Notes under the pieces: model-generated
Seen by the model: only the letters and a program-made list of their open reading frames with translations
What the model was told of the DNA's origin: nothing
The model's database searches: none
Origin: a virus
Strand: one strand, 5' to 3'
DNA length: 42,959 nucleotides
Virus record (IMG/VR): IMGVR_UViG_3300008117_000246
Span: 1-42,959 of that record
Made by a program: the position numbers and the translations under genes
Shown: one piece after another, positions 2,157-15,835 of the stretch
How positions within the stretch are numbered: position 1 is the stretch's first letter
Layout: the number at the start of each line of letters is the position of its first letter

Positions 2157-2795
2157 ATGATACTAAATGAAGAAATATCAAGGATTAAATCTATTATGGG
2201 TTTAATTGTTGAAGATGACGGAGAATTGCTTCAACCAAGAATTAAACCCGGTGTTGAAGACTTATTTAATTTGGTTCCAGAATTATCTGAAATTGGAACA
2301 CCGCAACAATATTCCGAATATCTTGATACAATATTTCCAGAAAGCGAAAATAAAGATATTTGGTTTCATGCCACAAATGTGGATCCCAGCATTATAGATA
2401 AGTTTAGATCCAGTCCATCTGGAACATATGGACCTGGCGTATATTTTCAATCGGAAAAAGGTTATTGGACAACAGAAAAGGTTGGTAAAAATACAATATA
2501 TGCAATAGTTAATGCAAACAAGTTGTTTAACTTTGACAAGTTTGGTGATGAAATGATTAGTAAATATAGAGACGAATATAATAGTCCCAGAAAAACATAT
2601 GAAACTCCAAGACCAACATTTGCATTACAAAAAGAATTAATGGATATGGGATACAATAGTTTATTTGATATTATGACTAAAACCAATAAATATCTGGTTA
2701 TGTTTCCATCATTTGAAGATCAAATCCACATATTGGGCAATCAGCAGGATATTGATATGTTTAGAGAATTTGTTGGCGGTAATATATATATGTAA
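2157..2795 (+). CDS. Tagged ADP-ribosyltransferase-like protein
   Basis: 212 aa. The first 19 residues (MILNEEISRIKSIMGLIVE) form a tag ending I-V-E. The body looks like a phage ADP-ribosyltransferase of the HYE type: WFHAT (His71) for NAD binding, GTYGPGVYF (residues 89-97) as the Tyr strand, then MGYNSLF and YLVMFPSFEDQIHIL near 183-193, the place where such enzymes carry the catalytic Glu/Gln strand. T4 Alt is a packaged ADP-ribosyltransferase that modifies host RNA polymerase, so a tagged one fits capsid delivery. Catalysis is inferred from motifs only. Its last codons (VGGNIYM) and the bases after them match the end of the LRR gene at 366. Confidence 0.65.
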   Translation: MILNEEISRIKSIMGLIVEDDGELLQPRIKPGVEDLFNLVPELSEIGTPQQYSEYLDTIFPESENKDIWFHATNVDPSIIDKFRSSPSGTYGPGVYFQSEKGYWTTEKVGKNTIYAIVNANKLFNFDKFGDEMISKYRDEYNSPRKTYETPRPTFALQKELMDMGYNSLFDIMTKTNKYLVMFPSFEDQIHILGNQQDIDMFREFVGGNIYM

Positions 2796-2798
2796 TGC

Positions 2799-2806
2799 AT
2801 ATTTAT
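2799..2806 (+). promoter_or_regulatory. ATATTTAT box before the frameshifted LRR gene
   Basis: ATATTTAT-AATT-ATG, with the surrounding sequence nearly identical to 366-400, showing that the promoter-like box and tag have been copied as one unit. Confidence 0.55.
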
Positions 2807-2810
2807 AATT

Positions 2811-3177
2811 ATGAAATATCTTATCACAGAACGGCAACTCAAGTTAATTAAGGAGGACAACATCCGGAAAATTGATTTTGATATATTCAATAATGATTGG
2901 GCTTTATTACAAAAATTCCTGGAGCGTAGAGGAAATCCACCTTATATTATTACAGGTGATTTGTTATTTGTATTTGACTGGTTCAAATATTGAATCCTTG
3001 GGAAATCTTCAATCTGTTGGTGGTAATTTGGATTTGAATAGTACAAAAATTGAATCCTTGGGAAATCTTCAATCTGTTGGTGGTAATTTGTATTTGAATA
3101 GAACTCCATTATCCAAAATAACAACGGAAAAAGAAATCCGGAACCAAGTTGAAGTTGGTGGAGGTATTTATCTTTAA
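2811..3177 (+). pseudogene. Tagged LRR gene broken by a 7-bp insertion
   Basis: The first 45 codons are almost identical to the gene at 382 (tag MKYLITERQLKLIKE plus adapter up to PPYIITG). The frame then ends early (GDLLFVFDWFKY, stop at 2991-2993). The expected continuation, LYLTGSNIESLGNLQSVGG plus one further repeat and the usual cap, runs in another frame to 3177. Around 2957-2974 the sequence reads gatttg-ttatttg-tatttgact; removing the extra 7 bp restores the frame. It is probably a slippage duplication. Either a pseudogene, a phase-variable gene or an assembly error. Confidence 0.75.
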
Positions 3178-3180
3178 TGC

Positions 3181-3188
3181 ATATTTAT
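3181..3188 (+). promoter_or_regulatory. ATATTTAT box before the gene at 3193
   Basis: ATATTTAT-AATT-ATG, identical layout to the boxes at 370 and 2799. Confidence 0.55.
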
Positions 3189-3192
3189 AATT

Positions 3193-3495
3193 ATGAAATA
3201 TCTTATCACAGAACGGCAACTCAAGTTAATTAAGGAGCAAGATGAAATCCTGGAATTGGATTTTGATTTTTTTAATAACAACTGGAATATTTTACAAAAA
3301 TTCCTGGAACGCAGAGGAAATCCTCCTTATATTATTACAGGTGATTTGGATTTGAGAAATACAAAAATTGAATCCTTGGGAAATCTTCAATCTGTTGATG
3401 GGGATTTGTATTTGACGAATACTCCATTATCCAAAACAACAACCGAAGAAGAAATCCGGAACCAAGTTGAAGTTGAAGGTGAAATTGTAATGTAA
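3193..3495 (+). CDS. Short tagged LRR protein
   Basis: 100 aa. Tag MKYLITERQLKLIKE, then a diverged adapter (residues 18-49, containing FNNNWNILQKFLERRGN and PPYIITG), one and a half 20-residue repeats, and the cap TPLSKTTTEEEIRNQVEVEG. This is the minimal working version of the family: tag, adapter, one repeat, cap. It sits in the same tandem array and has its own ATATTTAT box, so each member appears to be transcribed separately. Confidence 0.75.
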   Translation: MKYLITERQLKLIKEQDEILELDFDFFNNNWNILQKFLERRGNPPYIITGDLDLRNTKIESLGNLQSVDGDLYLTNTPLSKTTTEEEIRNQVEVEGEIVM

Positions 3496-3498
3496 TTA

Positions 3499-3506
3499 AT
3501 ATTTAT
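3499..3506 (+). promoter_or_regulatory. ATATTTAT box before the micro-gene at 3511
   Basis: ATATTTAT-AATT-ATG with the family spacing retained, although the gene behind it is only 39 codons long. Confidence 0.5.
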
Positions 3507-3510
3507 AATT

Positions 3511-3630
3511 ATGAAATATCTCATCACAGAACGCCAATTGCAGTTAATAAAGGAAGATGATATACATATATTGGGTAATGAAAATGATATTGAAGGTTTC
3601 AAAAACTTTGTCGGTAACCGATATTTTTAA
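3511..3630 (+). CDS. Micro-gene: tag fused to the tail of an ART-like protein
   Basis: 39 aa. Residues 1-15 are MKYLITERQLQLIKE, the LRR-family tag with one change. The rest (DDIHILGNENDIEGFKNFVG then NRYF) matches the last 25 residues of the ART-like protein at 2157 (DQIHILGNQQDIDMFREFVG). The catalytic region is absent. The gene therefore looks like a deletion or recombination product joining an LRR-type tag to the end of an ART paralogue. It may be a remnant; an expressed peptide is possible because start, box and frame are intact. Confidence 0.65.
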   Translation: MKYLITERQLQLIKEDDIHILGNENDIEGFKNFVGNRYF

Positions 3631-3674
3631 TTTAACATCTTTATTTTTTAACATTAGGATTTTATCATTTAGTT

Positions 3675-4085
3675 ATGAGTGATAAAGTTATTGTTGCAGC
3701 ATCTGGGTATTTCAACCCCTTACATAAGGGTCATGTAGAATACTTACAAAAAGCCAAAGACCTTGGTGATTATTTGGTTGTTATCATTAATAATGATAAA
3801 CAACGCGAACTCAAAGGCGCAAAAGAATTTATGAAGCAGGATGAACGAATGGCAATTGTTTCCGCTTTAAGGTGTGTTGATAAGGTTGTTTTATGTGTAG
3901 ATACTGATAGTTCTGTATCTAGAACCCTGAGAATAATTAAACCCAATATATTCGCGAAAGGTGGTGATCGTTACTCATCCGAAATTCCAGAATCAAAAGT
4001 CTGTGGTGAGTTGGGAATAAAGATTGTTGATGGGTTAGGTGATAAGATACAATCTTCCTCTTGGCTTCTCAGAGGTGAGAATTAA
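3675..4085 (+). CDS. Cytidylyltransferase-like nucleotidyltransferase (TagD/RfaE-C type)
   Basis: 136 aa, the usual size for the single-domain family that joins a nucleoside triphosphate to a phosphorylated alcohol or sugar (glycerol-3-phosphate or heptose-1-phosphate). The HxGH motif is seen in NPLHKGHVEYL (residues 15-25), and the N-terminal strand ends in SGYFNPLH. The usual C-terminal ISTTxI signature is replaced by KIQSSSWLL, so the substrate cannot be named. No tag and no perfect ATATTTAT box precede it. It could supply an activated precursor for surface or nucleotide-sugar chemistry. Confidence 0.8.
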   Translation: MSDKVIVAASGYFNPLHKGHVEYLQKAKDLGDYLVVIINNDKQRELKGAKEFMKQDERMAIVSALRCVDKVVLCVDTDSSVSRTLRIIKPNIFAKGGDRYSSEIPESKVCGELGIKIVDGLGDKIQSSSWLLRGEN

Positions 4086-4219
4086 CCAAGTTCTATAACT
4101 CTGAAATATTTCTCCCCAAGTTTAATCAGTTGTGGTTCTGATGTTGTTGAACTTATTTTGTGTGAAATTCTCACTAATTCACTTCCTTCCTCTGGTTTCC
4201 TGATGGATTGATTTTCCAT
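4082..4219 (-). CDS. Small hypothetical protein
   Basis: A 45-codon frame opposite the end of the nucleotidyltransferase gene, overlapping it by 4 bp. The predicted peptide starts MENQSIRKPEEGSELVRISH and ends GEKYFRVIELG. Composition is charged and ordinary, with no membrane segment or signal. It occupies the otherwise empty 4086-4219 stretch, which supports its being a gene. Function unknown. Confidence 0.5.
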   Translation of the reverse strand: MENQSIRKPEEGSELVRISHKISSTTSEPQLIKLGEKYFRVIELG

Positions 4220-4336
4220 AGAGATATTTTCTATAAATATAACAATTTTAAGTCAGATAAAAACTTAATATTTAGATAATATCGTATTTTTGATTATTCA
4301 ACAATAATTTTATAATTATTGGTAAATTAAAAACTA

Positions 4337-6592
4337 ATGATTAGAAAAATTTTATTTATTTTAATGTTTCCTGTTTGTCTTTTTTCACAGGATACGGTTA
4401 CTTGGAGTTTGAATTTACCTGAATTTACGGTGAAGTCAGTTGGAAAAAAGGAATCATCGGCTGCGGTTATCAATATGATTAAAAATAATGTCGTAGTTTC
4501 TGATGGATTATCATCTGAATTTGTTAAGAGAACCCCTGATAGAAATGTTAGTGACGCTCTGAAAAGGATAAATGGTGTCACAATTCAGAATGATAGATTT
4601 GTTTTGGTAAGAGGATTATCTGATAGATATAATTTGGCGATGTTGAATAAAACTTTGCTTCCTTCAACAGAACCTGATAGAAAGTCATTTTCATTTGATG
4701 TTATTCCATCTAATATGATTGATAACTTGGTGATTGTTAAATCGGCGACACCAAGTTTGCCAGGTGATTTTGGTGGAGGTATCGTTCAGATCACAACAAA
4801 GGAGGTTTCTGATAATTTCATGAATGTTGGTTTGAGTTCAAGTTATGGATTTATATCAACAGGACAACCTTTTAAGTTAATTTCCCCAAATTATTTTCCG
4901 TCCAACTTCCCATCAACTTATAAATTCAGAGTTGGTAGTTTGGGAGATAGAAGAGCATATTCAAGTTTGATGACTGATGGTAAAACCAGAGAATTTACCA
5001 CAATCCCCAACCTTGGTGGGAATGTTGCTTATGGATATGAAAAAGGAAATTGGTACTTTTTGCTTTCGGCATCGGCTAGAGAGAACAATACTTTGAATTA
5101 TATTGACAGACAAGATTATCAATCTTCAACAGAACTTGCTTATAAATACAAAGATACGATGTGTTCAAGTGTTTCAACGTTGAATGGACTTCTGAATATA
5201 ACATATTATGATAAGCACAAGTTTTCCTTGAAGTCTTTATTCAATAGACAGATTGAAAACACCTATTTAACACGAAATGGTGAGAACTATGACAATATTC
5301 AGGATGTTAGGAGTAATTCATCAAATACGATTGAAAAAACAATCTTGAATACTCAATTTGAAGGAAAGATTAACAATACTGACTTTATTTTGGGACATAA
5401 CTTGATGTTGAGAGACCAACCTGATTATAGAGTTAATCCAATTGTCCGTTCTTTGGGAACTGATGACAAATTTTCGATTGCTTGGAGGGATACTTACAGG
5501 TTTTGGTCGGTTATGAATGAAAATTCCTTAAATGGTGCCGTAAATCATACATATAAAGATTTCAAAGTTGGTGGTTTATATATCAAAAGAACAAGAACTT
5601 TCAAAGCAAGAGTTTTTAGATATGACGCACCTGATTTATTGAATGAAATAACGAACAACACGGACAGATATTCAACAGATTTTGATTTGATGGCTGGATA
5701 TGCTCAATATGATAAAGAATTTGGGAAAATTAAGGTTAATGGAGGGTTGAGAGTTGAATATAATTTGTTTGATGTTGCCACATCTGATTTCTCTGGCGAG
5801 AAAATAAATGTGGAAAGGGAATATTTGGACTTTTTGCCGTCATTTAACTTATCATATAACCTTGAAAAGATTAAAGTTCGGGCATCATCATCCAAAACTC
5901 TTGCTCGTCCAGAATTCAGGGAGGTTGCCAACTTCGCTTACTACGATTTTGTGAGAAATGCTCAAATTTTGGGAAATTCATCTCTTGAAAAGTCGGACAT
6001 ATACAATTTTGACTTAAAATTTGAATATTACCCCAAGTTTGGTGAGAACATATCGGTTGCTTTGTTCGGAAAGAAGTTTATCAAACCGATTGAGCAGATT
6101 GTTGCCGATGGTTCCGTTCCATCAAACCTTCTTTTAACATATACAAACCCAGATGATGCGGTTTTATATGGAATTGAACTTGAATTTAGAAAAAAATTAA
6201 ATTCATCCTTTGATGTATATACAAACGCAACATTATCCTCATCAAAAGTTGTCGTTAATGGTATTTCAAGGAGTCTGCAAGGACAATCTGGTTATATTTT
6301 GAACGGAGGGGTGAATTACAAGTTGGATAATAATGTTTTCAGTTTGTCATATAATAGAGTGGGTGATAGAATATCCGCAGTTGGGTTCCAAGGATACCCA
6401 AATATATATGAAAACTCACGAGACATATTTGATTTTGTATATTTGAGAAAGATTAATAAGGTCGAGGTTAAATTGGCGATAAATGATATACTAGCACAAC
6501 CATCAAAGTATTATCAAAAGGTAAATCACAGAGATTTAATAAACACAAATAATGAGCAATCAATCTCATTATCATTAAATGTAAAAATATGA
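4337..6592 (+). CDS. TonB-dependent outer-membrane receptor
   Basis: 751 aa. An N-terminal signal peptide (IRKILFILMFPVCLFS) is followed by a plug domain at about residues 50-160 with the hallmarks NVSDALKRINGVTIQNDRF, VRGLSDRYN, DVIPSNMIDNLVIVKSATP and PGDFGGGIVQI. The rest is a long stretch of alternating aromatic-rich strands ending in LSLNVKI, as in 22-strand barrels. Such receptors import siderophores, vitamins or glycans in Bacteroidota. It overlaps the lipoprotein gene by ATGA, so the two are translationally coupled. It is a host-type gene flanked by phage genes; possibly receptor replacement, superinfection exclusion or nutrient uptake. Confidence 0.9.
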   Translation: MIRKILFILMFPVCLFSQDTVTWSLNLPEFTVKSVGKKESSAAVINMIKNNVVVSDGLSSEFVKRTPDRNVSDALKRINGVTIQNDRFVLVRGLSDRYNLAMLNKTLLPSTEPDRKSFSFDVIPSNMIDNLVIVKSATPSLPGDFGGGIVQITTKEVSDNFMNVGLSSSYGFISTGQPFKLISPNYFPSNFPSTYKFRVGSLGDRRAYSSLMTDGKTREFTTIPNLGGNVAYGYEKGNWYFLLSASARENNTLNYIDRQDYQSSTELAYKYKDTMCSSVSTLNGLLNITYYDKHKFSLKSLFNRQIENTYLTRNGENYDNIQDVRSNSSNTIEKTILNTQFEGKINNTDFILGHNLMLRDQPDYRVNPIVRSLGTDDKFSIAWRDTYRFWSVMNENSLNGAVNHTYKDFKVGGLYIKRTRTFKARVFRYDAPDLLNEITNNTDRYSTDFDLMAGYAQYDKEFGKIKVNGGLRVEYNLFDVATSDFSGEKINVEREYLDFLPSFNLSYNLEKIKVRASSSKTLARPEFREVANFAYYDFVRNAQILGNSSLEKSDIYNFDLKFEYYPKFGENISVALFGKKFIKPIEQIVADGSVPSNLLLTYTNPDDAVLYGIELEFRKKLNSSFDVYTNATLSSSKVVVNGISRSLQGQSGYILNGGVNYKLDNNVFSLSYNRVGDRISAVGFQGYPNIYENSRDIFDFVYLRKINKVEVKLAINDILAQPSKYYQKVNHRDLINTNNEQSISLSLNVKI

Positions 6593-7800
6593 AAAAGTTT
6601 TTAACAATTTTGGCTGTTTCACTCCTATTTGTCAGCTGCGAAAAAAATTTGGGGGGAGAGGATGACGATGTAATTAATGTTCCGTCACAAACAACATTAA
6701 ATGGTGTCATAAACGCAACAACAACATTAACTTCCGATAAAACTTGGGTGTTAAAAGGTTATGTATATGTTACAGACGGAGCGTCTCTCATAATCCAACC
6801 AGGAACAAGGATTGTTTCCGATATTAGTGAAAAAGGTGCTCTATGTATCGAGAGAGGTTCAAAGATTATCGCCGAAGGAACCCAAGATAAACCCATCGTA
6901 TTTACATCAGGAAAACCGGATGGTGAAAAATCACCGGGAGATTGGGGTGGAATTATAATTTTGGGCAAAGCAAAAACAAATCGTTCATCAGAACCGACTA
7001 TTGAAGGGGGAATCGGTCGTCCTTATGGTGGAACGAATAATGAGGATAATAGTGGAATATTAAAATATGTCCGAATAGAATATGCCGGTGTGGCAGCACT
7101 ACCGAATTCAGAAATAAATGCCCTCACATTGGGTGGAGTTGGTTCAGGAACAACTATTGAGTATGTTCAAACCATTTATGCCAACGATGACGCATTTGAG
7201 TTCTTTGGTGGAACGGTTTCACCAAAATATCTATATGCTTTCGCCACAGCCGATGATGACTACGACTTTGATTTTGGTTATACTGGGACCTTAAATTATG
7301 GTATATCCAAAAGAGACCCACAATTTGTGGATACAGGTGATGCCGGCAACGGTGTTGAATGTGACAACGATGGTATTGGTTCATCCGCTGAACCATTCAC
7401 ACATCCAAAGTTGTATAATATGGTTCTGATTGGCGCAAATTCATCAACCGCTTTGAGTAATCATAATTTGGGGTTAAGATGGAGAAGAGCAACGCAATTC
7501 ACAATAGAAAACTCCAAAATAATAGGTCATATGAAAGGTGGATTCTCTATGGAGTCAAATGAAACCGCACAATCCTATAAAGATGGTGTTTCTAAGTTCA
7601 GAAACAACGTTGTGGGCGCTTTTGACCCGTCACTGAACTTCATATCCAAAGCGACTACAATAATGTCGTCAGCGGACGTTAAAACGAGGTGTTTATCCGA
7701 AGGAAACATAGAGAAAGTGTTTTCAGATAGTGAAATAAACGAACTATCAAAACCGATTTGGATTCAAAAGTGGGGGAGGTTCCCTCAGAAAGGTTTTTAA
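6589..7800 (+). CDS. Surface beta-helix lipoprotein partnered with the TonB receptor
   Basis: 403 aa. Lipoprotein signal MKKFLTILAVSLLFVSC with the lipobox at LFVSC; the residues after Cys17 (EKNLGGEDDD) are acidic, as in Bacteroidota lipoproteins exported to the cell surface. The body has right-handed beta-helix features: LIIQPGTRIV, GALCIERGSKIIAEGTQDKP, GDWGGIIILGKAK and IRYV-like strands, with an Asp-rich segment (DDDYDFDF) that could bind cation. Relatives of this lipoprotein are commonly encoded next to TonB receptors in Bacteroidota. It is not a SusD homologue by eye. Start fixed by the ATGA overlap with the receptor gene. Confidence 0.85.
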   Translation: MKKFLTILAVSLLFVSCEKNLGGEDDDVINVPSQTTLNGVINATTTLTSDKTWVLKGYVYVTDGASLIIQPGTRIVSDISEKGALCIERGSKIIAEGTQDKPIVFTSGKPDGEKSPGDWGGIIILGKAKTNRSSEPTIEGGIGRPYGGTNNEDNSGILKYVRIEYAGVAALPNSEINALTLGGVGSGTTIEYVQTIYANDDAFEFFGGTVSPKYLYAFATADDDYDFDFGYTGTLNYGISKRDPQFVDTGDAGNGVECDNDGIGSSAEPFTHPKLYNMVLIGANSSTALSNHNLGLRWRRATQFTIENSKIIGHMKGGFSMESNETAQSYKDGVSKFRNNVVGAFDPSLNFISKATTIMSSADVKTRCLSEGNIEKVFSDSEINELSKPIWIQKWGRFPQKGF

Positions 7801-7805
7801 TTTTG

Positions 7806-7836
7806 AAGCCCCGTTGAAGACCGGGGCTTTTTTATT
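7806..7836 (+). terminator. Intrinsic terminator after the receptor operon
   Basis: Hairpin with arms AGCCCCG and CGGGGCT and an eight-base loop, followed by six T. It ends the receptor-lipoprotein operon and lies at the 3' end of the converging small gene at 7837. Confidence 0.9.
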
Positions 7837-8004
7837 TTATTCCACAATTTGTTTTTCAATAAAATACATGGTTAGGTCATCTTCACCAACGCTCCGCTCT
7901 TTTTTTGTTTTATAATTTTCTGCGTCAGCCAAATTTGAAAAAATCTTATCAATCGTTTTACAAGCCAAATGTCCATATTGGCGCATAACAACAAAAACAT
8001 TCAT
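7837..8004 (-). CDS. Small hypothetical phage protein
   Basis: 55 codons. The peptide begins MNVFVVMRQYGHLACKTIDK, continues with SNLADAENY and SVGEDDLTMYFIEKQ, and ends IVE. The pattern 'viewing strand, then A-x-x-A-E-x-Y helix' is typical of small phage proteins with no known role. It converges on the receptor operon and uses the other side of the 7806 terminator. It is below the usual gene-length cut-off but fills the gap with good coding character. Confidence 0.55.
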   Translation of the reverse strand: MNVFVVMRQYGHLACKTIDKIFSNLADAENYKTKKERSVGEDDLTMYFIEKQIVE

Positions 8005-8087
8005 ACCCGGAGTAATTTATTTACAATAATAATTTTTTTGTAAATTAAGTAATTATTTAATTTTTTTTTTATTATTTTTTATACAAA

Positions 8088-8537
8088 ATGCTGATAATGG
8101 AGAATCCGCTGGAAATTAATTTTAATTATTTTGATAATGACTGGGATGCTTTACAAACATTTTTAAATAATAAAGGTAATCCCCCATATATAATAACAAC
8201 AAATTTGAACCTGAAAAGAAAGAAGGTAAATTCGTTTTATAGATTGTTAGGTGTAGAAAATAATTTGAATTTGGAACAAGCCAACATTGTATCATTAGGC
8301 CATTTAATATATGTAAAAGGCGACTTGAATCTAGAATTATCTAATATTCAAACACTATCCAATCTGGAGTATGTTTTAGGGTCAGTTGATCTATCCTCAA
8401 CATTTATTGAAGATCTCGGACATTTAAAGTTTGTTGGTAATAATTTGGATTTAAGGGGGTGTAGGTTTTACAATGCGCCAATTGATGAAATAAAAAGAAA
8501 AGTTAAGGTAATGGGTAAGATATTTATTGATTATTAA
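8088..8537 (+). CDS. Diverged LRR-family protein without tag
   Basis: 149 aa. Residues 9-38 (FNYFDNDWDALQTFLNNKGN then PPYIIT) match the adapter of the genes at 382-3495, followed by about four degenerate repeats of the L-x-L-xx-x-I-xxL form and a cap with IDEIKRKVKVMGKIFIDY that matches IRNQVEVGGNIYM of the array. The (I/L)-x-E tag is missing: the protein starts MLIMENPLEIN. It is therefore an older, tagless cousin, useful for separating what the tag does from what the repeat body does. DNA identity with the array is low. Confidence 0.75.
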   Translation: MLIMENPLEINFNYFDNDWDALQTFLNNKGNPPYIITTNLNLKRKKVNSFYRLLGVENNLNLEQANIVSLGHLIYVKGDLNLELSNIQTLSNLEYVLGSVDLSSTFIEDLGHLKFVGNNLDLRGCRFYNAPIDEIKRKVKVMGKIFIDY

Positions 8538-8545
8538 AACACATC

Positions 8546-8553
8546 ATATTTAT
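8546..8553 (+). promoter_or_regulatory. ATATTTAT box
   Basis: ATATTTAT, 19 bases before the ATG at 8573. This belongs to a second spacing class (about 8-20 bases), also seen before 8980, 12763, 13097, 14387, 15852, 20455, 23609, 28975 and 31340. Confidence 0.5.
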
Positions 8554-8572
8554 TGTAAATAAGTTATAAAAA

Positions 8573-8956
8573 ATGTCATACGAGGAGTTTATTAATTCAT
8601 ATGGTTTTAAACATGCGTCCAGACTTGTTATGCGACAGTTTCCGTGGATTAAAAAAATCACAATAGATAAAGATAATTATAACGAGTATAAGTATATTTA
8701 TTTCGTTGAATTACACATAGATCCTAATATTTTCAGTGAAACGGTTGAAAACGCTGGGATTCAAACACAAACTAAAAACTGGTTCTATCCATTTGCTAAT
8801 TTGAGTATCATATTTTCCAATATATCTGACAAAGAGGGTCAAATATATTCAGATGACATCGAAGATATCTTTGAGAAAGTAAAAAATACTGAAGCGATCC
8901 CTTCAAAAATTAATCTACAAAGAAAAGTTAAAGTTCATGGATATTATTTGATTTAA
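8573..8956 (+). CDS. Hypothetical protein with LRR-type C-terminal cap
   Basis: 127 aa, not recognised. The last 13 residues (LQRKVKVHGYYLI) resemble the cap of the neighbouring LRR-type gene (IKRKVKVMGKIFI), suggesting shared ancestry of the C-terminus. No signal peptide or membrane segment. It lies downstream of an ATATTTAT box and in line with the 8088-9738 group of plus-strand genes. Confidence 0.65.
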   Translation: MSYEEFINSYGFKHASRLVMRQFPWIKKITIDKDNYNEYKYIYFVELHIDPNIFSETVENAGIQTQTKNWFYPFANLSIIFSNISDKEGQIYSDDIEDIFEKVKNTEAIPSKINLQRKVKVHGYYLI

Positions 8957-8958
8957 AT

Positions 8959-8967
8959 AATATTTAT
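8959..8967 (+). promoter_or_regulatory. AATATTTAT box
   Basis: AATATTTAT, 12 bases before the ATG at 8980; second spacing class. Confidence 0.45.
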
Positions 8968-8979
8968 AGAAAAAAAAGA

Positions 8980-9351
8980 ATGGATATTAAAAATTTTTTA
9001 AACCAGAAATCCGATTATGTTAAGGTTGAAAGCGATAATAGGTTTTATTATATGCTCCAACAAATGCAATTTAACCGGTGGAAAATAACTGCGATTGTTT
9101 TAGGGTTATTTTTCTTCATTATTTTAGGAATAAACGCTGGTGTTTTTATCGGTGTTGAAATAAATGAAGATTGGAAAGAAATGCTTCTGATTTTACTCGG
9201 CGCATTTGTCGGAAACCTGAATAAAGTAGTTGATTATTGGTTCAACTCAGAGGATAGAGACAAAATGTTAATACAAAAAGTGGATGAAGAAGATGGTTTA
9301 AGTTCATCAGATGTTACGTCTATTTCAAGTGAAGAAGAAATACAACAATAA
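8980..9351 (+). CDS. Small membrane protein with two hydrophobic segments
   Basis: 123 aa. Hydrophobic stretches at residues 38-60 (ITAIVLGLFFFIILGINAGV) and about 68-84 (MLLILLGAFVGNLN), then a soluble, acidic, Ser-rich tail (SSSDVTSISSEEE). Two membrane spans with a charged tail are compatible with a phage holin or a membrane-anchored accessory protein, but nothing in the sequence decides. No lysis endolysin gene is next to it; the nearest muralytic candidate is at 18588. Confidence 0.6.
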   Translation: MDIKNFLNQKSDYVKVESDNRFYYMLQQMQFNRWKITAIVLGLFFFIILGINAGVFIGVEINEDWKEMLLILLGAFVGNLNKVVDYWFNSEDRDKMLIQKVDEEDGLSSSDVTSISSEEEIQQ

Positions 9352-9369
9352 AAATTATATAATTGTAAA

Positions 9370-9738
9370 ATGAAGAAAATAGTTAGATTAACAGAATCGG
9401 ATATAACTAGAATTGTTAAAAGAGTTTTATCCGAGCAGGATTATTCCGAAAATCAATTGGAGACATCATTTGATGGAACCCTAAAACAGCCACTTTCTCT
9501 TGAAGTTTTTGACAAAACTGGAAAAAATATTAAAAAGGTTCAAGTTTATAAAGTTTTTAACGATCAAGGAAAGTATTTTGCGGTTTATAAAGGCCCCAAG
9601 ACTGGGAAAGATGTTTATAGGTATTATATAACTTGCGAATCATTAGAATTACATGACAATATTGATAAGCAGAGTTATAAAAACGATCAATTTGTTTTAG
9701 CGATGCGAAAAAGATTTTGCGGTTCATTCAAAAGATAA
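9370..9738 (+). CDS. Tagged small protein
   Basis: 122 aa. It opens with the classic form of the tag, MKKIVRLTESDITRIVKRVL followed by S-E-Q, so the proposed cut is after L-S-E at residue 22. The remainder (about 100 aa, with two Cys near 89 and 116) is unrecognised; it contains a KVQVYKVFND strand pair. Upstream there is no perfect ATATTTAT box, only an A/T-rich TATATAATTG. A terminator follows at once. Likely capsid cargo by its tag. Confidence 0.7.
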   Translation: MKKIVRLTESDITRIVKRVLSEQDYSENQLETSFDGTLKQPLSLEVFDKTGKNIKKVQVYKVFNDQGKYFAVYKGPKTGKDVYRYYITCESLELHDNIDKQSYKNDQFVLAMRKRFCGSFKR

Positions 9739-9740
9739 AA

Positions 9741-9765
9741 AAAAGCCCTTACGGGCTTTTTTTTA
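9741..9765 (+). terminator. Bidirectional terminator
   Basis: Perfect hairpin AAAAGCCC / GGGCTTTT with loop TTAC and T-runs on both strands. It serves the converging genes ending at 9738 (+) and 9763 (-). Confidence 0.9.
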
Positions 9766-11580
9766 TTCTAGGGGTTCTATATCCCAAATTCCATCACCTA
9801 TTTCCATACCTCTATCTAAAACTGAACTAGGTATTAGAGTGTCTTTATTTCCGACATTATTAATTAAGAACAAATTTTTCAGATTTCCAATACATTCTGG
9901 CAACTTTTTCAAGTTGGGGTTATTATTAACTCCAATAATTGTTATTTCTGTTAATTGACACATGAAATCTGGGAAATTATTGATACAATTATCAAAATAC
10001 ACGACTCTTAGATTTTTGAATCTAAGAATAGAATTTGGAATTTCAAAAAGTAACTGATTATTTCCTCTATTAACAATTCTTAACTCAGTTAATGAGTCAG
10101 GAAGAAATTGAAATAACTCTTCAAACCCATAAAGAGAGATAAATTTACCCACTTCTGATGCGGTTAAATTATCAACATGTAATTTATTGTCAGGTATTGA
10201 TATTTTACCAGCAAAAGTTGATTTTAATTTTTCTTTAATATTCTTGAACGAAGGTAAATTAATTAATGCTATGTCAGCATCATTTAATGCTGCTAATGAT
10301 TTAGTTGAGATAGAATCAATTTTTTTTGCGGTATAGTAATCAAGAACTTTTTTATCTGAATTACTTATTTGATTGGCGGTCAAGTCAAATCCCAAACTTA
10401 TATATTTTTTTTGTAATTCTGGTGTTAAATTAGCATACTGAGGGTCGCTCAAACGGTTTCCGCTAATTTCAATCCAAAATTCCACATCATCTAAATTACC
10501 ACCAAAATCTTGAATTGGATTATCTCCCACAGGTTTATTCCTAATACGGTTATATCTTTCTTTTTCTTCTGGTGATAATGGTTTTGGAACAAAAAGATTT
10601 TTCAAATCAGCAACCCAAGGTAATTTTTTAATAATTTCATCCCATGGTAATGCTTCATGACCGCTATATCTACCTGAGTTGGTGCCATCAGCCAATCTCA
10701 TTTTTCCATCTGGTTGAACCAATATTACCGCAGCAAAATTTACATCTTTAAATTCAATATTTTCATTAATTACATAATATAATGTCAAATTGTTATTAAA
10801 TCTGTAATTATAGAACAAATTACCTGCTCCGTCCCTTGATGTGCACCAAGATCTACCATTTCTTAACATTATACACTGGTCTTTCGTTTTAGGCTGGAAT
10901 ATTTTTACTCCACCTTTATCATATACCAGTTCGATATTTTCCATTTCTTTTTTCGGAATATTTAAAATATCTTCATCGCTTCTCAGTCCATCAACCAAGT
11001 GTTCAATATCTTCAACAGACATATCTAGAATTAATCCGGTGTCATCCGGTATTCTATTATAAACATTAAAAAGGTTATTTATGTATTCTTCCGCCGCATC
11101 TTTTGAAAATCCAGGTTGCGCTAAAAACTTAGGTAAAAGTTGCTTTTTCATTACCGCTTCAAAGTTCTTTTCCAAAAACTCCGTCAAATCCAAGAAATCG
11201 TATTGTGATAAGTCTTTTTTGTTATCTGGCAAGAATCTTTGAATATCTAAAAACTTTCTAATCATGGTTTTTAGATCATTATTACTAACACCTTCACTTT
11301 TTTTCTTGAAGATGGAAAAATATTTTTTAATGTCCGACTTTATTTTTTTGCTATTAACAACATTTTTTAATTGAGCGTAATTATATTTTTCAACATTTTT
11401 CATTTCAACCGGCAAAGATTCTTTTATCCTGTCGAAACCATCAATATATGACAAAATTACATCATCGGTGTCCTTAGTTTCCTGTTTAAATTTCGCTAAT
11501 AGTTTTTGAACTAACTTATCCGAAAATTCTTTTATCAATATTTCCCTAACCTGAGTGTTAAGTGCGTTAATTAAATTCAT
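9763..11580 (-). CDS. WC-motif domain protein with C-terminal leucine-rich repeats
   Basis: 605 aa. The N-terminus contains REILIKEF (residues 12-19), so an (I/L)-x-E site (I-K-E) is present near the usual tag position, although the upstream residues do not look like the ITE-type tag. The WC module lies at about 215-300: CIMLRNGRSWCTSRDG and then LTLYYVINENI. The C-terminal part (about 500-590) has plant-like LRRs such as IPNSILRFKNLRVVYFDN and LKKLPECIGNLKNLFLINN. It thus joins in one chain the two bodies that are separate in the 382-937 genes. On the minus strand, an ATATTTAT box lies 19 bases before the ATG. Confidence 0.75.
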   Translation of the reverse strand: MNLINALNTQVREILIKEFSDKLVQKLLAKFKQETKDTDDVILSYIDGFDRIKESLPVEMKNVEKYNYAQLKNVVNSKKIKSDIKKYFSIFKKKSEGVSNNDLKTMIRKFLDIQRFLPDNKKDLSQYDFLDLTEFLEKNFEAVMKKQLLPKFLAQPGFSKDAAEEYINNLFNVYNRIPDDTGLILDMSVEDIEHLVDGLRSDEDILNIPKKEMENIELVYDKGGVKIFQPKTKDQCIMLRNGRSWCTSRDGAGNLFYNYRFNNNLTLYYVINENIEFKDVNFAAVILVQPDGKMRLADGTNSGRYSGHEALPWDEIIKKLPWVADLKNLFVPKPLSPEEKERYNRIRNKPVGDNPIQDFGGNLDDVEFWIEISGNRLSDPQYANLTPELQKKYISLGFDLTANQISNSDKKVLDYYTAKKIDSISTKSLAALNDADIALINLPSFKNIKEKLKSTFAGKISIPDNKLHVDNLTASEVGKFISLYGFEELFQFLPDSLTELRIVNRGNNQLLFEIPNSILRFKNLRVVYFDNCINNFPDFMCQLTEITIIGVNNNPNLKKLPECIGNLKNLFLINNVGNKDTLIPSSVLDRGMEIGDGIWDIEPLE

Positions 11581-11599
11581 CGTGTAAATATTTTATTAT

Positions 11600-11607
11600 A
11601 TAAATAT
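11600..11607 (-). promoter_or_regulatory. ATATTTAT box (minus strand)
   Basis: Reads ATATTTAT on the minus strand about 19 bases upstream of the ATG of the 605-aa WC/LRR protein (plus strand ATAAATAT). The rest of the 11581-11723 gap shows no gene. Confidence 0.45.
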
Positions 11608-11723
11608 AGGTAAATATTGTAATATATCTCAAATAACCTGATGTTATAACCTCACCAATCAAATAAAATTTTAATTGATATTGCGCTCAAAACATATTAT
11701 CATTTTAATTCAAAATAAATAAA

Positions 11724-12731
11724 ATGATAGATTACGCGGATATTATTGTTGATTTACAAGCCGGAGATACCGGAAAAGGAAAAATAGCAAACCATTTGAT
11801 GTCAAAGTCCAAAAAATACACTCATGTTGTTAGATATAATGGCGGAGGTAATGCTGGACACACATTTTACTACGAAGGAAAAAAAATAATCACCCATTAC
11901 ATCCCAATCGGAGTTATTTATAAAATAAAATCGATAATTGGACCCGGTTGTGTTGTTAATCCAACAAAATTGTTTGAAGAGATTAACGACCTGGAAACCA
12001 TCGGATTCCCAGTTCGGGATTATCTCAAGATTGACAAAAGAGTTCATATCGTTCAGGACGAATATGTTGAAGAAGATATGTCTGACAGTCAAATTGGGAC
12101 CACAAAAACTGGAAACGGGCCAACTTATCGCAACAAATACAATAGGACAGGTTTGAGAGCAGAAAATTGCGATGAATTGAAAGATTTTATTGTGGATACT
12201 TACGATGAGTTCCATGGAAAGAATAAGGTGAAGATTTTATTTGAAGGAGCCCAGGGGTTCGAATTGGATATTGATTGGGGGGATTACCCTTTTGTCACCT
12301 CATCACACTGCACAGCAGGAAGCGCGTTAATGAATGGTGTGCCACCTCAAAAAGTCCGTGAGGTGTATGGTGTTGCCAAAGCGTATCGGACTTATGTTGG
12401 GGCAAAATCATTTGAACCAAATAACCCAATTTTTGAAGAGATTAGAGAAAAATTCGGTGAATTTGGGGCAACAACTGGACGTCCAAGACAAATTAATTGG
12501 TTAGATCTGGACACACTTATAAAAGCGACAAATATTAATGGTGCGACAATTGTTATTTTTAATAAATTTGACGTTCTAAAAAGCATTAATACTTTTGAAT
12601 TAATTTATAAAGGAGAAAACAAAAAATTTGATAATGAAGCGGAATTTGTTTTTTTCATCAAAAAAAAGATAAATAAATTTTGTCCTACCGTTAATAAAAT
12701 TGTGTTTAGTGAATCACCATATAGCATTTAA
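11724..12731 (+). CDS. Adenylosuccinate synthetase family enzyme (PurA/PurZ-like)
   Basis: 335 aa, the short archaeal/phage form (bacterial PurA is about 430 aa). The family joins aspartate to IMP (PurA) or to dGMP (PurZ) using a nucleoside triphosphate. Seen here: phosphate loop GDTGKGK (14-20) with the catalytic Asp15 kept, RYNGGGNAGHT (37-47) with His46, IGTTKTGNGPTYRNK, EFGATTGRPRQINWLD, and the base-reading motif NKFDVL. The C-terminus is abbreviated (SESPYSI instead of STGPxRxxTI). The retained Asp speaks for PurA or a PurZ0-like enzyme rather than classical PurZ. Substrate not decidable by eye. It lies 0.7 kb before a stand-alone tRNA-synthetase-like gene. Confidence 0.85.
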   Translation: MIDYADIIVDLQAGDTGKGKIANHLMSKSKKYTHVVRYNGGGNAGHTFYYEGKKIITHYIPIGVIYKIKSIIGPGCVVNPTKLFEEINDLETIGFPVRDYLKIDKRVHIVQDEYVEEDMSDSQIGTTKTGNGPTYRNKYNRTGLRAENCDELKDFIVDTYDEFHGKNKVKILFEGAQGFELDIDWGDYPFVTSSHCTAGSALMNGVPPQKVREVYGVAKAYRTYVGAKSFEPNNPIFEEIREKFGEFGATTGRPRQINWLDLDTLIKATNINGATIVIFNKFDVLKSINTFELIYKGENKKFDNEAEFVFFIKKKINKFCPTVNKIVFSESPYSI

Positions 12732-12735
12732 CCGT

Positions 12736-12743
12736 ATATTTAT
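12736..12743 (+). promoter_or_regulatory. ATATTTAT box
   Basis: ATATTTAT, 19 bases before the ATG at 12763, directly after the purA-like stop codon; implies the downstream small gene is transcribed on its own. Confidence 0.45.
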
Positions 12744-12762
12744 CGGTAATAAAAAGTTTTGA

Positions 12763-13053
12763 ATGGATTTATTCAAATTACATCAGATAATTGAGAAAAT
12801 TTTGCCGGTGATAACTAAACCACCATATGATAATGTGCGTTTTAGAATCCAAAATTATAAGGGCTTATACGAAATGAGTTTTGTTTTCGAATTACCGGAA
12901 GAATTATATGATATTATAAAGAAAAAAGATGAAAATTCTAATATTGAGGAAGTAAATGCACGTTTCGAAGCATATAGACTCCTGAAGACAATTAATAATT
13001 ACTTGAATACTAGGATAGTTATTAATGATATACGGTTTGAGAAAAAACGTTAA
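12763..13053 (+). CDS. Hypothetical protein
   Basis: 96 aa, mixed alpha/beta character, no signal or membrane segment, not recognised. It begins MDLFKLHQIIEKILPVITKP. The position between the PurA-like and synthetase-like genes could reflect function, but its own ATATTTAT box suggests separate control. Confidence 0.65.
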   Translation: MDLFKLHQIIEKILPVITKPPYDNVRFRIQNYKGLYEMSFVFELPEELYDIIKKKDENSNIEEVNARFEAYRLLKTINNYLNTRIVINDIRFEKKR

Positions 13054-13076
13054 GGTAAAAACTTTTTGATGTAATA

Positions 13077-13084
13077 ATATTTAT
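13077..13084 (+). promoter_or_regulatory. ATATTTAT box
   Basis: ATATTTAT, 12 bases before the ATG of the micro-gene at 13097; this supports that gene being real. Confidence 0.45.
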
Positions 13085-13096
13085 CTTCAAAAAGAC

Positions 13097-13216
13097 ATGG
13101 CAAAGAACAAAAAACCAAAAAAACCACCTATGAGTAGAAAATCTATACTCAAAAAAATGAAATTAATGAAATCCAATATGGAGGTAATTAAAAAATTACA
13201 AAGTCAGAATAATTAA
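13097..13216 (+). CDS. Very small basic protein
   Basis: 39 codons; peptide starts MAKNKKPKKPPMSRKSILKK and ends KLQSQNN. About a third of the residues are Lys or Arg, with four Met. Such peptides usually bind nucleic acid. Preceded by an ATATTTAT box 12 bases upstream of the ATG. It resembles in style the other tiny basic gene at 22870. Confidence 0.5.
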   Translation: MAKNKKPKKPPMSRKSILKKMKLMKSNMEVIKKLQSQNN

Positions 13217-13262
13217 AAAATTATTAGAATTTTTAACATATGATTTTTCCATAAAAATTACT

Positions 13263-13376
13263 ATATTTATTTCTGATGTTAAAATTAAAGAAATATAAGA
13301 TGAGAAATTGCTCTTTCAACCAAGAGCAAAAGATTATTTAATTTATTTAACCCTTCCGAAAGAAGGGTTTTTTTTT
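13263..13376 (+). ncRNA. Candidate small RNA or leader with its own box, hairpin and terminator
   Basis: Within 115 bases there is an ATATTTAT box (13263-13270), a perfect 8-bp hairpin TTGCTCTT-TCAACC-AAGAGCAA (13308-13329) and an intrinsic terminator (13349-13376), with no normal gene. A 13-codon frame (13300-13341) starts just before the hairpin, so a leader peptide is the alternative reading. It lies upstream of the synthetase-like gene, so it could act as an attenuator for that gene. Confidence 0.4.
13349..13376 (+). terminator. Intrinsic terminator
   Basis: Arms AACCCTTC and GAAGGGTT with loop CGAAA, followed by nine T. Located 29 bases before the ATG at 13405, so it separates that gene from upstream transcription unless regulated. 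Confidence 0.85.
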
Positions 13377-13404
13377 ATATATAAACTAAACCTAAATACA
13401 ATTT

Positions 13405-14247
13405 ATGAAAAACACAAAAATTTATCATGAACTAGTGCAGAAGATGAGAGAGTTCTTTCTCTCAAAAAATTTTATTGAAGTTCCAACTCAAAGTAGATTA
13501 TCTATTTTAGCAGCTTGTGAAAATCCTCATTCAGTTAAAACATTTGAATATGGTGGTGAAATTTGGCCGTTGCCACAAACCGGACAAATGTGGTTGGAAT
13601 ATGAATTATTGAAAAATCCAGAATGGGATGGTGTATTTTGTATCTCAACATCTTATCGGGAAGAAAAAAATCCAATTCCGGGTCGCCATGAGTTAATATT
13701 CCCGATGTTTGAGTTTGAAAGCAAAGGTGGGATGGATAAGTTATTACAACTTGAATCCGAGTTATTGGAGCATTTGGGATTTGACGAGCCAATAGAAGTT
13801 AATTATGATGACGTTTGCGAGGAATATGGGGGTGTATCAATATTGGAAGATGAGCATGAAAGTAAAATGTGGAAAGAGAAAGGAAGTGTAGTTTCTCTCC
13901 AATATTTTCCAAGAAGAACAAATCCTTTCTGGAATATGAAAAATAAAGATGGCGTTATTTTCAATAAAGTTGATGTTATTTTGTATGGTCAGGAAACTAT
14001 TGGAAGCGCAGAAAGAAGTTGTGATGTTGAAAAAATGCGTGAAATGTTCTATAGCATAGAAGATGGAAAATATTGCGCAAAATTGTTTGAACTATTCGGT
14101 AAAGATAGAGTTGAAAAAGAACTTAATGACTTTTTATCGCATAAATTCTTCCCAAGATTTGGTGGTGGAATTGGAATGACCAGAATGGCAAGAGCGTATG
14201 AATTATTAAAACAAGAAAAAGATGAATTAGTATTCTCAGACAACTAA
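13405..14247 (+). CDS. Stand-alone class II Asp/Asn-tRNA-synthetase-like catalytic core
   Basis: 280 aa, only the catalytic domain: there is no N-terminal OB-fold anticodon-binding domain, which the true AspRS/AsnRS (430-590 aa) has. Motif 2 is recognisable in YREEKNPIPGRHELIFPMFE (residues 80-100) and motif 3 in FGGGIGMTRMARAYELL (about 250-268). Stand-alone cores of this family include asparagine synthetase AsnA-type enzymes and synthetase paralogues that amidate or aminoacylate non-tRNA targets. The ADP/AMP chemistry on Asp or Asn is inferred. The near neighbour, a PurA-like enzyme, also uses aspartate. No phage system with both is known to me. Confidence 0.8.
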   Translation: MKNTKIYHELVQKMREFFLSKNFIEVPTQSRLSILAACENPHSVKTFEYGGEIWPLPQTGQMWLEYELLKNPEWDGVFCISTSYREEKNPIPGRHELIFPMFEFESKGGMDKLLQLESELLEHLGFDEPIEVNYDDVCEEYGGVSILEDEHESKMWKEKGSVVSLQYFPRRTNPFWNMKNKDGVIFNKVDVILYGQETIGSAERSCDVEKMREMFYSIEDGKYCAKLFELFGKDRVEKELNDFLSHKFFPRFGGGIGMTRMARAYELLKQEKDELVFSDN

Positions 14248-14270
14248 TTAATTGATTTTCAATACTTTAC

Positions 14271-14309
14271 ATCCACAGAAGGAAATGTATTTCCATCTGT
14301 GGATTTTTA
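14271..14309 (+). terminator. Strong intrinsic terminator
   Basis: Long hairpin: ATCCACAGA / TCTGTGGAT outer stem and GGAAA / TTTCC inner stem around a TGTA loop, followed by TTTTTAT. Ends the synthetase-like gene. Confidence 0.85.
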
Positions 14310-14331
14310 TTTACATATATTTTAATTTTAT

Positions 14332-14339
14332 TATATTTG
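14332..14339 (+). promoter_or_regulatory. Possible host-type promoter -7 element (TATATTTG) plus phage box at 14371
   Basis: TATATTTG fits the Bacteroidota -7 consensus TAnnTTTG. An ATATTTAT box follows at 14371-14378, eight bases before the ATG at 14387, so this gene may have both early and late control. Confidence 0.4.
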
Positions 14340-14386
14340 CCTACTTATAGTCTGAATAACACGTTTTAAGATATTTATTATAAAAA

Positions 14387-14647
14387 ATGAATATGGATAA
14401 AATTATGAACTTTTTGGGCTCTTTGTTGGTTTTGGCGCTTGCTGTCGGCATTTTTTTGATGTTGATGGATAAAGAAATGCCAGACTCAAACAGAGAATTG
14501 TTGATTTCGTTTGTATCAGTTTTATTCGGTGCCATGGCAACTTCTCTTGGAAAAATTACTGGTAATGAATCCGACACTATTGGAGAATTAACCAGAAAAA
14601 ATAAAGAACTTGAAGAAAAAATCAAAAACTTAACGCCTAATGAATAA
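14387..14647 (+). CDS. Small membrane protein with coiled-coil tail
   Basis: 86 aa (an alternative ATG lies two codons downstream). A first hydrophobic segment at residues 6-25 (IMNFLGSLLVLALAVGIFLM), a second weaker one near 38-55 (LLISFVSVLFGAMATSLG), then a charged heptad-like tail (ELTRKNKELEEKIKNL). Overlaps the next gene by 8 bp. The pair of tiny membrane proteins is compatible with a lysis module (holin or spanin-like), but no signature proves it. Confidence 0.6.
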   Translation: MNMDKIMNFLGSLLVLALAVGIFLMLMDKEMPDSNRELLISFVSVLFGAMATSLGKITGNESDTIGELTRKNKELEEKIKNLTPNE

Positions 14648-14930
14648 GAGAGAATCAATAGTATTTATTGTTGGGACGTTATTAGTGCTGATTTTCATAG
14701 GAACTTTATTTTACAACATCACAAAACCTAAAAATCCCAAAAACACCGAAACACAAATTTGCGACGACTCAACATTTATGAATAAGTTGGGTAAATTGGA
14801 GAATAATGATTCAATCATTATTATGAATCAAAAGAAAATCGACCGAAAACTTGATAATGTGCGAACCATCAAAGTTTTCAAAGTGAAAAAAATTCAAAAT
14901 GACACCGTAACATTAAAACCCCTTGAATAA
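14640..14930 (+). CDS. Small single-span membrane protein
   Basis: 96 aa. One N-terminal hydrophobic segment (residues 6-24, IVFIVGTLLVLIFIGTLFY) followed by a soluble domain of about 70 aa with a repeated ND-x-I pattern, probably outside the cytoplasm. Translation is coupled to the preceding membrane protein by an 8-bp overlap. Its stop codon lies within the loop and arm of the following terminator. Confidence 0.6.
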   Translation: MNKRESIVFIVGTLLVLIFIGTLFYNITKPKNPKNTETQICDDSTFMNKLGKLENNDSIIIMNQKKIDRKLDNVRTIKVFKVKKIQNDTVTLKPLE

Positions 14931-14940
14931 GGGGTTTTTT
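14915..14940 (+). terminator. Bidirectional terminator overlapping the stop codon
   Basis: Perfect 10-bp stem AAAACCCCTT / AAGGGGTTTT with loop GAAT. The 5' arm encodes the last residues (KPLE) of the gene at 14640 and the 3' side borders the stop of the minus-strand gene at 14939. Confidence 0.9.
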
Positions 14941-15493
14941 ATTTGTCTTCGTTTAGATTATGAACTTTTAATATGTTTATAGCAAAGTTGATTAGTATTT
15001 CAGGTGTGGCATCGTATTTCATTATGCTTGCCATCCTTGAAATGAAATGAATGTTGTCTTTGATATAACCTTTATTTGTGTCAATTCGGTCCAGAACATA
15101 AAAATTCAAATTATCGGATAGTTTGGCATCGAAAATCAAGTTTGTTTCCAGATAAGCGCATTTTTCAGGGAGAATTATATCCTCAATTGTTAAGTTAAAA
15201 TCAAATCCATATTTTTCAGCATCTTTTTTTGTCTTATTCCAAATATATTGTTCTGGCGATAATATTTTAGATTGTTTTGGTTTTTCAGTTTTTTGGGTTT
15301 TTATTGTTTCCCAATATGAAAAATCATTATTTGATATTTGTTCGTTAATAAATTTTTGTTCGTCGTTCATTTCTTCACCGGCAGGAGGTAAAATACCTCT
15401 TTTCCTTAAAGCAGCTCGGACTTTTTCTCTACGCTTTTGCTCATACCTCTTATCTGGATTATTTTTTCTCCAATCTGCTGAATCAACCGACAT
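14939..15493 (-). CDS. HNH-like phage endonuclease
   Basis: 184 aa. The C-terminal half carries the signature of a phage HNH-type family: LPEKCAYLE, then VLDRIDTNKGYIKDNIHFIS and RMASIMKYDATPEILINFA. The LDRIDxxKGYxxxNxxxIS core is the likely metal-binding nuclease site; the usual Cys-Pro-Tyr-Leu is Cys-Ala-Tyr-Leu here. The first 90 residues are Lys/Glu-rich and resemble a DNA-binding or linker region with no clear domain. Likely a free-standing homing or resolving nuclease. Confidence 0.65.
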   Translation of the reverse strand: MSVDSADWRKNNPDKRYEQKRREKVRAALRKRGILPPAGEEMNDEQKFINEQISNNDFSYWETIKTQKTEKPKQSKILSPEQYIWNKTKKDAEKYGFDFNLTIEDIILPEKCAYLETNLIFDAKLSDNLNFYVLDRIDTNKGYIKDNIHFISRMASIMKYDATPEILINFAINILKVHNLNEDK

Positions 15494-15562
15494 TTATATT
15501 ATTTATAATAAATAATACCAAAAATTATTGAAAACCGCACAACTTATTTGTAATTTTTATAA

Positions 15563-15817
15563 ATGGCACCAGAAATTTTATCAAATTTTTTTAGAGTCGG
15601 TGAATTAAGAGTAGCCGGGCATTTTATGGTCGCCGATGTGCTACCAATCAATAATGAATACTTATTTGGTTGTGAAAACAAAATAATTGCGCTTAGTAAG
15701 CATAATGATAAGCATATTTTGGCTTACAAAAATAACGAAATGACTAAGTTTTTGCTATATTGTGGAATTTCTGATGAGGAATTATTGGAATATGTGATTT
15801 TGGAACAGAACAAATAA
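15563..15817 (+). CDS. Hypothetical protein
   Basis: 84 aa, not recognised. Mixed alpha/beta composition, one Cys at about 35 and one near 71, no signal peptide. The start follows an A/T-rich stretch without a Shine-Dalgarno, as everywhere in the window. Confidence 0.6.
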   Translation: MAPEILSNFFRVGELRVAGHFMVADVLPINNEYLFGCENKIIALSKHNDKHILAYKNNEMTKFLLYCGISDEELLEYVILEQNK

Positions 15818-15827
15818 CTATGTTATA

Positions 15828-15835
15828 ATATTTAT
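15828..15835 (+). promoter_or_regulatory. ATATTTAT box
   Basis: ATATTTAT, 16 bases before the ATG at 15852. Confidence 0.45.

Follow-up and report, generated by a model that had tools for sequence, protein, structure and literature searches.

A TonB-dependent receptor and lipoprotein gene pair in a virus genome

The IMG/VR virus record IMGVR_UViG_3300008117_000246, which we analysed along its whole length of 42,959 nucleotides (hereafter the window), carries two adjacent genes, the first coding for a TonB-dependent receptor (TBDR) and the second for a lipoprotein (Table 1). The features of this pair, of its promoter and of its relatives in viruses and bacteria are set out here, and they point to a probable role in the acquisition of phosphorus. 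Both open reading frames (ORFs) of the pair are open, with no interruption, and the ATGA at which they overlap suggests that the lipoprotein may be translationally coupled to the receptor. An earlier annotation made from the letters of the window, the sequence-only reading, had described two intact genes that share an ATGA and end in a terminator amid phage-style genes, and this description is borne out. The phage-type genes of the window include those for a thymidylate synthase, a member of the RNA ligase/tail-fibre attachment family (phrog_562, T4-type), an HNH/NUMOD endonuclease and an adenylosuccinate synthetase-like protein. When the initial 25 kb of the window were searched for near-identical sequence among GenBank phages, none was recovered.

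Table 1. Features of the receptor-lipoprotein locus (positions are those of the window unless residues are given)
Feature	Position	Strand	Details
Pho-box-like direct repeat TTAATATTTAGATAATA	4265..4281	+	two TAAY units 11 bp apart; match to TTAAYNNNNNNWTAAYA; conserved in phage relatives
Bacteroidota-type promoter element TAATTATTG (TAnnTWTTG)	4313..4321	+	exactly 48 nt after the start of the repeat
TBDR, short form without the N-terminal carboxypeptidase-regulatory-like domain	4337..6592	+	751 aa; ATG start; PF07715, PF14905
Plug domain, residues 58-146 of the TBDR	4508..4774	+	PF07715, E 1e-7
C-terminal part of the beta-barrel, residues 408-747 of the TBDR	5558..6577	+	PF14905, E 1.3e-25; long strands predicted (low-confidence model)
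ATGA overlap of the TBDR and lipoprotein genes	6589..6592	+	gap of -4, recurring in phage loci (see text)
Lipoprotein	6589..7800	+	403 aa; ATG start; lipobox Cys17; right-handed parallel beta-helix (predicted)
Lipobox LFVSC, Cys17	6637-6639	+	sequence motif in the lipoprotein
Right-handed parallel beta-helix	about residues 31-380 of the lipoprotein		predicted structure
Intrinsic-terminator-like hairpin GAAGCCCCGTTGAAGACCGGGGCTTT	7805..7830	+	9-pair stem, then a T-rich tail

Recurrence in phages and purifying selection

A search with the lipoprotein recovered relatives on at least 127 IMG/VR viral contigs, of which the best 80 (72-78% identity) were kept, and a search of viral contigs with the TBDR recovered 11 relatives. 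The resulting set of 92 loci consists of the window's own locus (L001) and 91 from viral contigs, some of which overlap as views of one contig. A TBDR match is present in 88 of these loci and a lipoprotein match in 91; in the four lipoprotein loci that lack the TBDR, the lipoprotein starts no more than about 110 bp from the end of the contig. The TBDR gene precedes the lipoprotein gene in nearly all retrieved loci, and the two overlap by 4 nt in 63 of the 66 phage loci in which both starts could be set. The sequence-only reading took outer-membrane import pairs to be rare in phages, which is wrong for this pair. It had also named a pair found only in host chromosomes as an outcome that would refute its account, and this is not what we see, given that the pair recurs on viral contigs.

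Further, a T4-type terminase is encoded on 14 of 40 tested contigs and a gp23-type capsid protein on 13 (contigs of 326, 171 and 162 kb are among the carriers). Because these hallmark genes lie on the same contigs, and phage genes are also found in the window, the pair is located in genuine phage genomes. The genes that adjoin it vary widely from phage to phage. Homologous pairs do occur in bacterial chromosomes, so that contamination or a chimeric assembly, with a bacterial operon misjoined to phage contigs, has to be considered. Such an origin is at odds with the many independent contigs, the phage-only clade described below, the T4-type hallmark genes and the diversity of the phage neighbours; because the pair recurs across viral loci, we reject it for the family and regard its residual probability as negligible.

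The median ratio of nonsynonymous to synonymous substitution rates (dN/dS) is 0.10 for the TBDR (66 pairs of sequences) and 0.11 for the lipoprotein (305 pairs), and values this low indicate strong purifying selection on the two genes. These ratios, together with the conserved overlap and a promoter spacing that is maintained across divergent phages, make it extremely improbable that the pair is neutral, hitch-hiking cargo kept by chance.

A conserved Pho-box-like promoter upstream of the receptor gene

Ahead of the pair, the window has no exact match to TTAAYNNNNNNWTAAYA other than the repeat listed in Table 1, and many phage homologues keep the same 48-nt spacing between the repeat and the promoter element. 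Among 45 deduplicated regions upstream of phage TBDR genes, TTAAY-N6-WTAAYA was found as an exact match in 22 (0.22 expected from shuffles) and with at most one mismatch in 37 (5.6 expected). Pairs of TAAY units at a distance of 11 bp number 107 per 100 phage and 264 per 100 host TBDR upstream regions (controls, 6 and 18), the host regions having more TAAY-pair peaks at 22 and 33. Three or more TAAY units were found upstream of 13 of 996 phage ORFs, and all 13 of these ORFs are this TBDR. The composite of the box and the element at the 48-nt spacing is present in 14 of 41 viral records, and a reversed control pattern gave 0 matches; its 15 distinct occurrences in the viral loci (3.1 Mb, both strands counted) all lie before the TBDR gene. 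These elements indicate that the phage pair is served by a promoter of its own. A reading of the repeat as a general phage promoter can be ruled out, as the exact box precedes only 8 of 950 other phage ORFs against the 22 of 45 TBDR genes, and no phage ORF but the TBDR is preceded by an array of three or more units.

Similar arrays are also found in bacteria. The Aquirufa genome (2.5 Mb) has the three-unit array at three sites: one precedes its copy of the pair, another lies some 150 bp upstream of a match to PiT, and the third precedes a PlcP-like phosphoesterase gene. Other genes with such arrays in the bacterial loci code for a PlcP-like metallophosphoesterase, a polyphosphate kinase and porin-like proteins, and some are of unknown function. 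Our first composite pattern (TTAAY...WTAAY + 30-34 nt + TANNTWTTG) has no match in the Aquirufa genome because the box there contains additional units and is differently spaced. When applied to three other hosts, the three-unit pattern gave 1, 0 and 2 matches against 1, 1 and 0 for the control, and it is thus informative in Aquirufa and not in general. One of the three-unit matches, in Pedobacter, adjoins a sigma/anti-sigma pair. The phosphate-responsive regulator PhoP of Riemerella, also a member of Bacteroidota, has a motif with the core TTTAACA as determined by DNA affinity purification sequencing (PMC9603813). We read the repeat as a Bacteroidota Pho box, a putative one in the case of the phage copy.

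Domain architectures of the receptor and the lipoprotein

Pfam searches with the TBDR recovered the Plug domain and the OMP_b-brl_3 barrel domain (Table 1), and a match to TIGR01782 falls under the cut-off of that model. In a sequence search of the PDB, the only match came from the plug region, to the colicin I receptor. The window TBDR shares 58-66% identity with nine phage homologues. The phage receptors come in two sizes, of about 750 or about 825 aa, the longer ones possessing a PF13715 carboxypeptidase-regulatory-like domain at the N terminus. A long form from locus L044 thus combines PF07715, PF13715 and PF14905, whereas the short form of the window lacks PF13715. At least five changes between the short and long states are required on the lipoprotein tree, and the domain therefore appears to have been gained and lost repeatedly among the phage receptors.

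The lipoprotein matched no Pfam or NCBIfam family, and a PDB sequence search with it recovered no meaningful match. Its AlphaFold model has a mean predicted local distance difference test score (pLDDT) of 73.9 and a predicted template modeling score (pTM) of 0.79. The top Foldseek matches of this model, though weak, have the right-handed beta-helix fold, and a second structural comparison gave VIA Z up to 22.9 against right-handed beta-helix proteins. On the strength of the model, the lipoprotein is predicted to adopt a pectin-lyase-like beta-helix, a common fold that is not informative on function. Identity with eight diverse phage homologues is 71-78%, and the alignment has invariant stretches, namely, NDDAFEFFGG, DDD(F/Y)DFDFGY, GDAGNGVECDNDG and RxRRATQF, which are candidate ligand sites.

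The encoding of a TonB-dependent barrel together with a surface lipoprotein is reminiscent of the SusCD importers of Bacteroidota. However, the fold of SusD is helical, whereas the phage lipoprotein is predicted to be a beta-helix and is without SusD domains. An identity with SusCD is ruled out, as neither Pfam nor NCBIfam searches revealed a SusD domain.

Bacterial relatives and origin of the phage pair

The closest bacterial relatives of the lipoprotein are found in Aquirufa (72-75% identity), followed by those of Chitinophagaceae and Sphingobacteriaceae (about 40-64%). Among 395 Bacteroidota species genomes sampled, identity above 60% was seen only in Aquirufa, and in a 200-genome sample of the family of Aquirufa only 3 genomes had relatives above 70%. 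In a tree of 166 lipoproteins, all 59 phage sequences form one clade (Shimodaira-Hasegawa-like approximate likelihood ratio test [SH-aLRT] support, 98), with three Aquirufa-like genomes as its sister group (SH-aLRT, 100). Given this single phage clade and its sister group, the phage genes are most simply traced to one exchange between a phage and an Aquirufa-like bacterium, in either direction.

In the bacterial loci, the pair repeatedly adjoins genes for a PiT phosphate permease (PF01384) and a PhoU-like DUF47 protein, as well as a histidine kinase and an OmpR-type response regulator. A phosphorus gene cluster surrounds the pair in Aquirufa antheringensis (locus L158, positions 2595-17156), and the Aquirufa cluster codes for a PitA-like transporter, an alkaline phosphatase, a phosphonatase-like hydrolase, an HD oxygenase of phosphonate degradation, a TIGR03364 oxidoreductase and major facilitator superfamily transporters.

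A related system has been studied in Flavobacterium johnsoniae by Lidbury et al. (2020), where the TonB-dependent transporter Fjoh_0545 (PF07715, PF13715 and PF14905) is encoded in the phoBR cluster beside Fjoh_0546, an outer membrane lipoprotein with the pectin-lyase fold (IPR011050); both are strongly induced by depletion of inorganic phosphate (Pi) and not by nitrogen or iron limitation (PMC8115612). The gene context of the cellular homologues and this published regulation strongly indicate that they act in phosphorus acquisition. The phage pair resembles this PUSIV pair (Fjoh_0545-Fjoh_0546) in the order of a Plug and OMP_b-brl_3 receptor followed by a pectin-lyase-fold lipoprotein, in the phosphate-gene context and, putatively for the phage, in Pho-type regulation. 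It differs in being phage encoded, in the 4-nt overlap of its genes and in the PF13715 domain, which is present in some phages and not in others, the window copy being among those without it. The phage proteins are also shorter than the host relatives that we collected, at about 400 versus about 450 aa for the lipoprotein and 750-825 versus about 930 aa for the TBDR.

Predicted function in phosphorus acquisition by the infected cell

The gene structure, the recurrence in phages, the conserved promoter architecture, the purifying selection and the phosphate-gene context of the host homologues together make it likely, in our view, that the pair is a phage-borne phosphorus-acquisition operon under the control of the Pho regulator of the host. 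The sequence-only reading had suggested, among other roles, that the pair might supply the infected cell with a nutrient; this suggestion is thereby well supported and made specific, the nutrient being phosphorus and the promoter of the Pho type. In such a scenario, the phage would infect a Pi-starved Bacteroidota cell, in which the phosphorylated host regulator (of the PhoB/PhoP type) would bind the box and activate the promoter during infection. A single mRNA ending at the hairpin would give rise to both proteins, with the lipoprotein probably made by translational coupling. The TBDR would insert in the outer membrane and be energised by the TonB-ExbBD system of the host, and the beta-helix lipoprotein, presumably situated beside it on the cell surface, would capture or present the substrate, for which an organic compound containing phosphate, or phosphate as such, is the most likely candidate. 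Host systems in the periplasm and inner membrane would then complete the uptake and so supply phosphorus for phage DNA.

Several observations weigh against this proposal. The window box has only two clear units, and 8 of the 45 phage upstream regions have no box with at most one mismatch within 140 bp (in several of these cases, the TBDR gene comes immediately after another phage gene). The 20 viral contigs searched for a PiT gene yielded none, and the phage would therefore rely on inner-membrane transport by the host. The AlphaFold model of the TBDR is of low confidence and too weak for interpretation. Further, the match to Fjoh_0545-Fjoh_0546 rests on the domain set, gene order and context rather than on direct alignment. 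Finally, a more distant pair in the 634-kb megaphage LR745206 yielded no Pho-box array. It is similar in being a large-phage TBDR with an adjoining, related lipoprotein (41% identity); in contrast to the pair described here, the lipoprotein gene comes first, TBDR identity is 27%, and the sequences lie far from the phage clade. We take the LR745206 pair, on these sequence comparisons, to be a separate, distant case.

The same megaphage bears on the import of another nutrient, either a carbohydrate or iron in the form of a siderophore. Michniewski (2021) proposed carbohydrate uptake, as a guess, for the SusC-like TBDR of the megaphages Mar_Mega_1 and LR745206 (PMC9723777), and the beta-helix is the fold of many polysaccharide-active enzymes. 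Against this, the lipoprotein is not SusD-like by Pfam, phosphate genes are among the host neighbours, and the F. johnsoniae counterpart responds to Pi and not to nitrogen or iron, which leaves uptake of another nutrient improbable. A phosphorylated glycan as substrate would reconcile the carbohydrate and phosphorus readings.

TBDRs are common phage receptors, and both products are outer-membrane proteins, as would be required if the phage TBDR and lipoprotein displaced or masked a host receptor used by other phages. Such receptor replacement or superinfection exclusion, which the sequence-only reading had also put forward, gives no reason for a promoter built from a repeat that is found before host phosphate genes, as there is none to tie exclusion to Pi starvation. 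A decoy would moreover be expected to change rapidly, whereas the sequences are conserved across different phage lineages, with low dN/dS. Neither the replacement of a host receptor nor the blocking of rival phages predicts a Pi-starvation promoter, and these proposals find no support here; we regard exclusion as the function of the pair as very improbable, though both could still arise as side effects.

As an operon for phosphorus acquisition, the pair has a precedent in cyanophages, in which phage-borne phosphorus genes and the control of phage genes by host PhoBR are established, pstS being one of several cyanophage genes controlled by Pho boxes (PMC10976474). PstS is, however, the periplasmic binding protein of an ATP-binding cassette transporter, whereas the pair described here would act at the outer membrane, in a TonB-dependent manner and in Bacteroidota hosts. 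A survey of phosphorus genes in terrestrial phages describes transport, mineralisation and regulatory genes, with TonB unmentioned in its main text (PMC10987575). In the part of the literature covered, we came across no description of a phage TBDR/lipoprotein pair driven by a Pho box.

Other genes in the window

Upstream of the pair lies a small cytidylyltransferase-like gene (3675-4085), and a cytidylyltransferase-like gene is likewise found several kilobases upstream of the pair in loci L028, L033 and L045 of related phages. Two regions with leucine-rich repeat (LRR)-like genes (1-965 and 2772-3563) contain near-identical direct repeats of about 60 bp, with copies 80-95% identical; the second of them appears to be split into short ORFs. 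Positions 8088-8537 encode a further, related LRR-like protein.

The adenylosuccinate synthetase-like protein (11724-12731, 335 aa) belongs to phrog_1211, a family whose name refers to the PurZ-type enzyme. Its P-loop, GDTGKGK, retains the PurA-type Asp, and the protein may accordingly be PurA-like instead of marking a Z-DNA genome. A 280-aa relative of class II tRNA synthetases (13405-14247; PF00152), shorter than a full synthetase, matches phrog_29758 (unknown function) with an E value of 2e-100. The thymidylate synthase (33708-35015, 435 aa) has extra internal segments and matches Pfam in three separate stretches, and a NUMOD1/HNH homing-endonuclease-like gene (38409-39272) lies near the T4-type RNA ligase gene.

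Implications

Host Pho control of phage phosphorus genes has been described mainly for marine cyanophages, in which these genes act inside the outer membrane; the pair described here points to the same strategy in large T4-like phages of Bacteroidota, but at the outer membrane. If the proposed function is correct, an infected, starving cell gains an uptake route across its outer membrane that is made by the virus. It would also give a concrete function to a type of receptor that was noted in megaphages and there guessed to be a sugar importer. A broader possibility, which we think on the whole unlikely, is that T4-like Bacteroidota phages keep a long-lived, phage-specific TonB-dependent phosphorus importer on the Pi-starvation regulator of the host and at the same time alter the phage-receptor profile of the cell, so that nutrient gain and exclusion go together. 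The motif TTAAY-N6-WTAAY, followed after 32 nt by TAnnTATTG, can be used to seek further Pho-regulated genes in these phages. On the phosphorus reading, infection in these communities is expected to be shaped by phosphate limitation.

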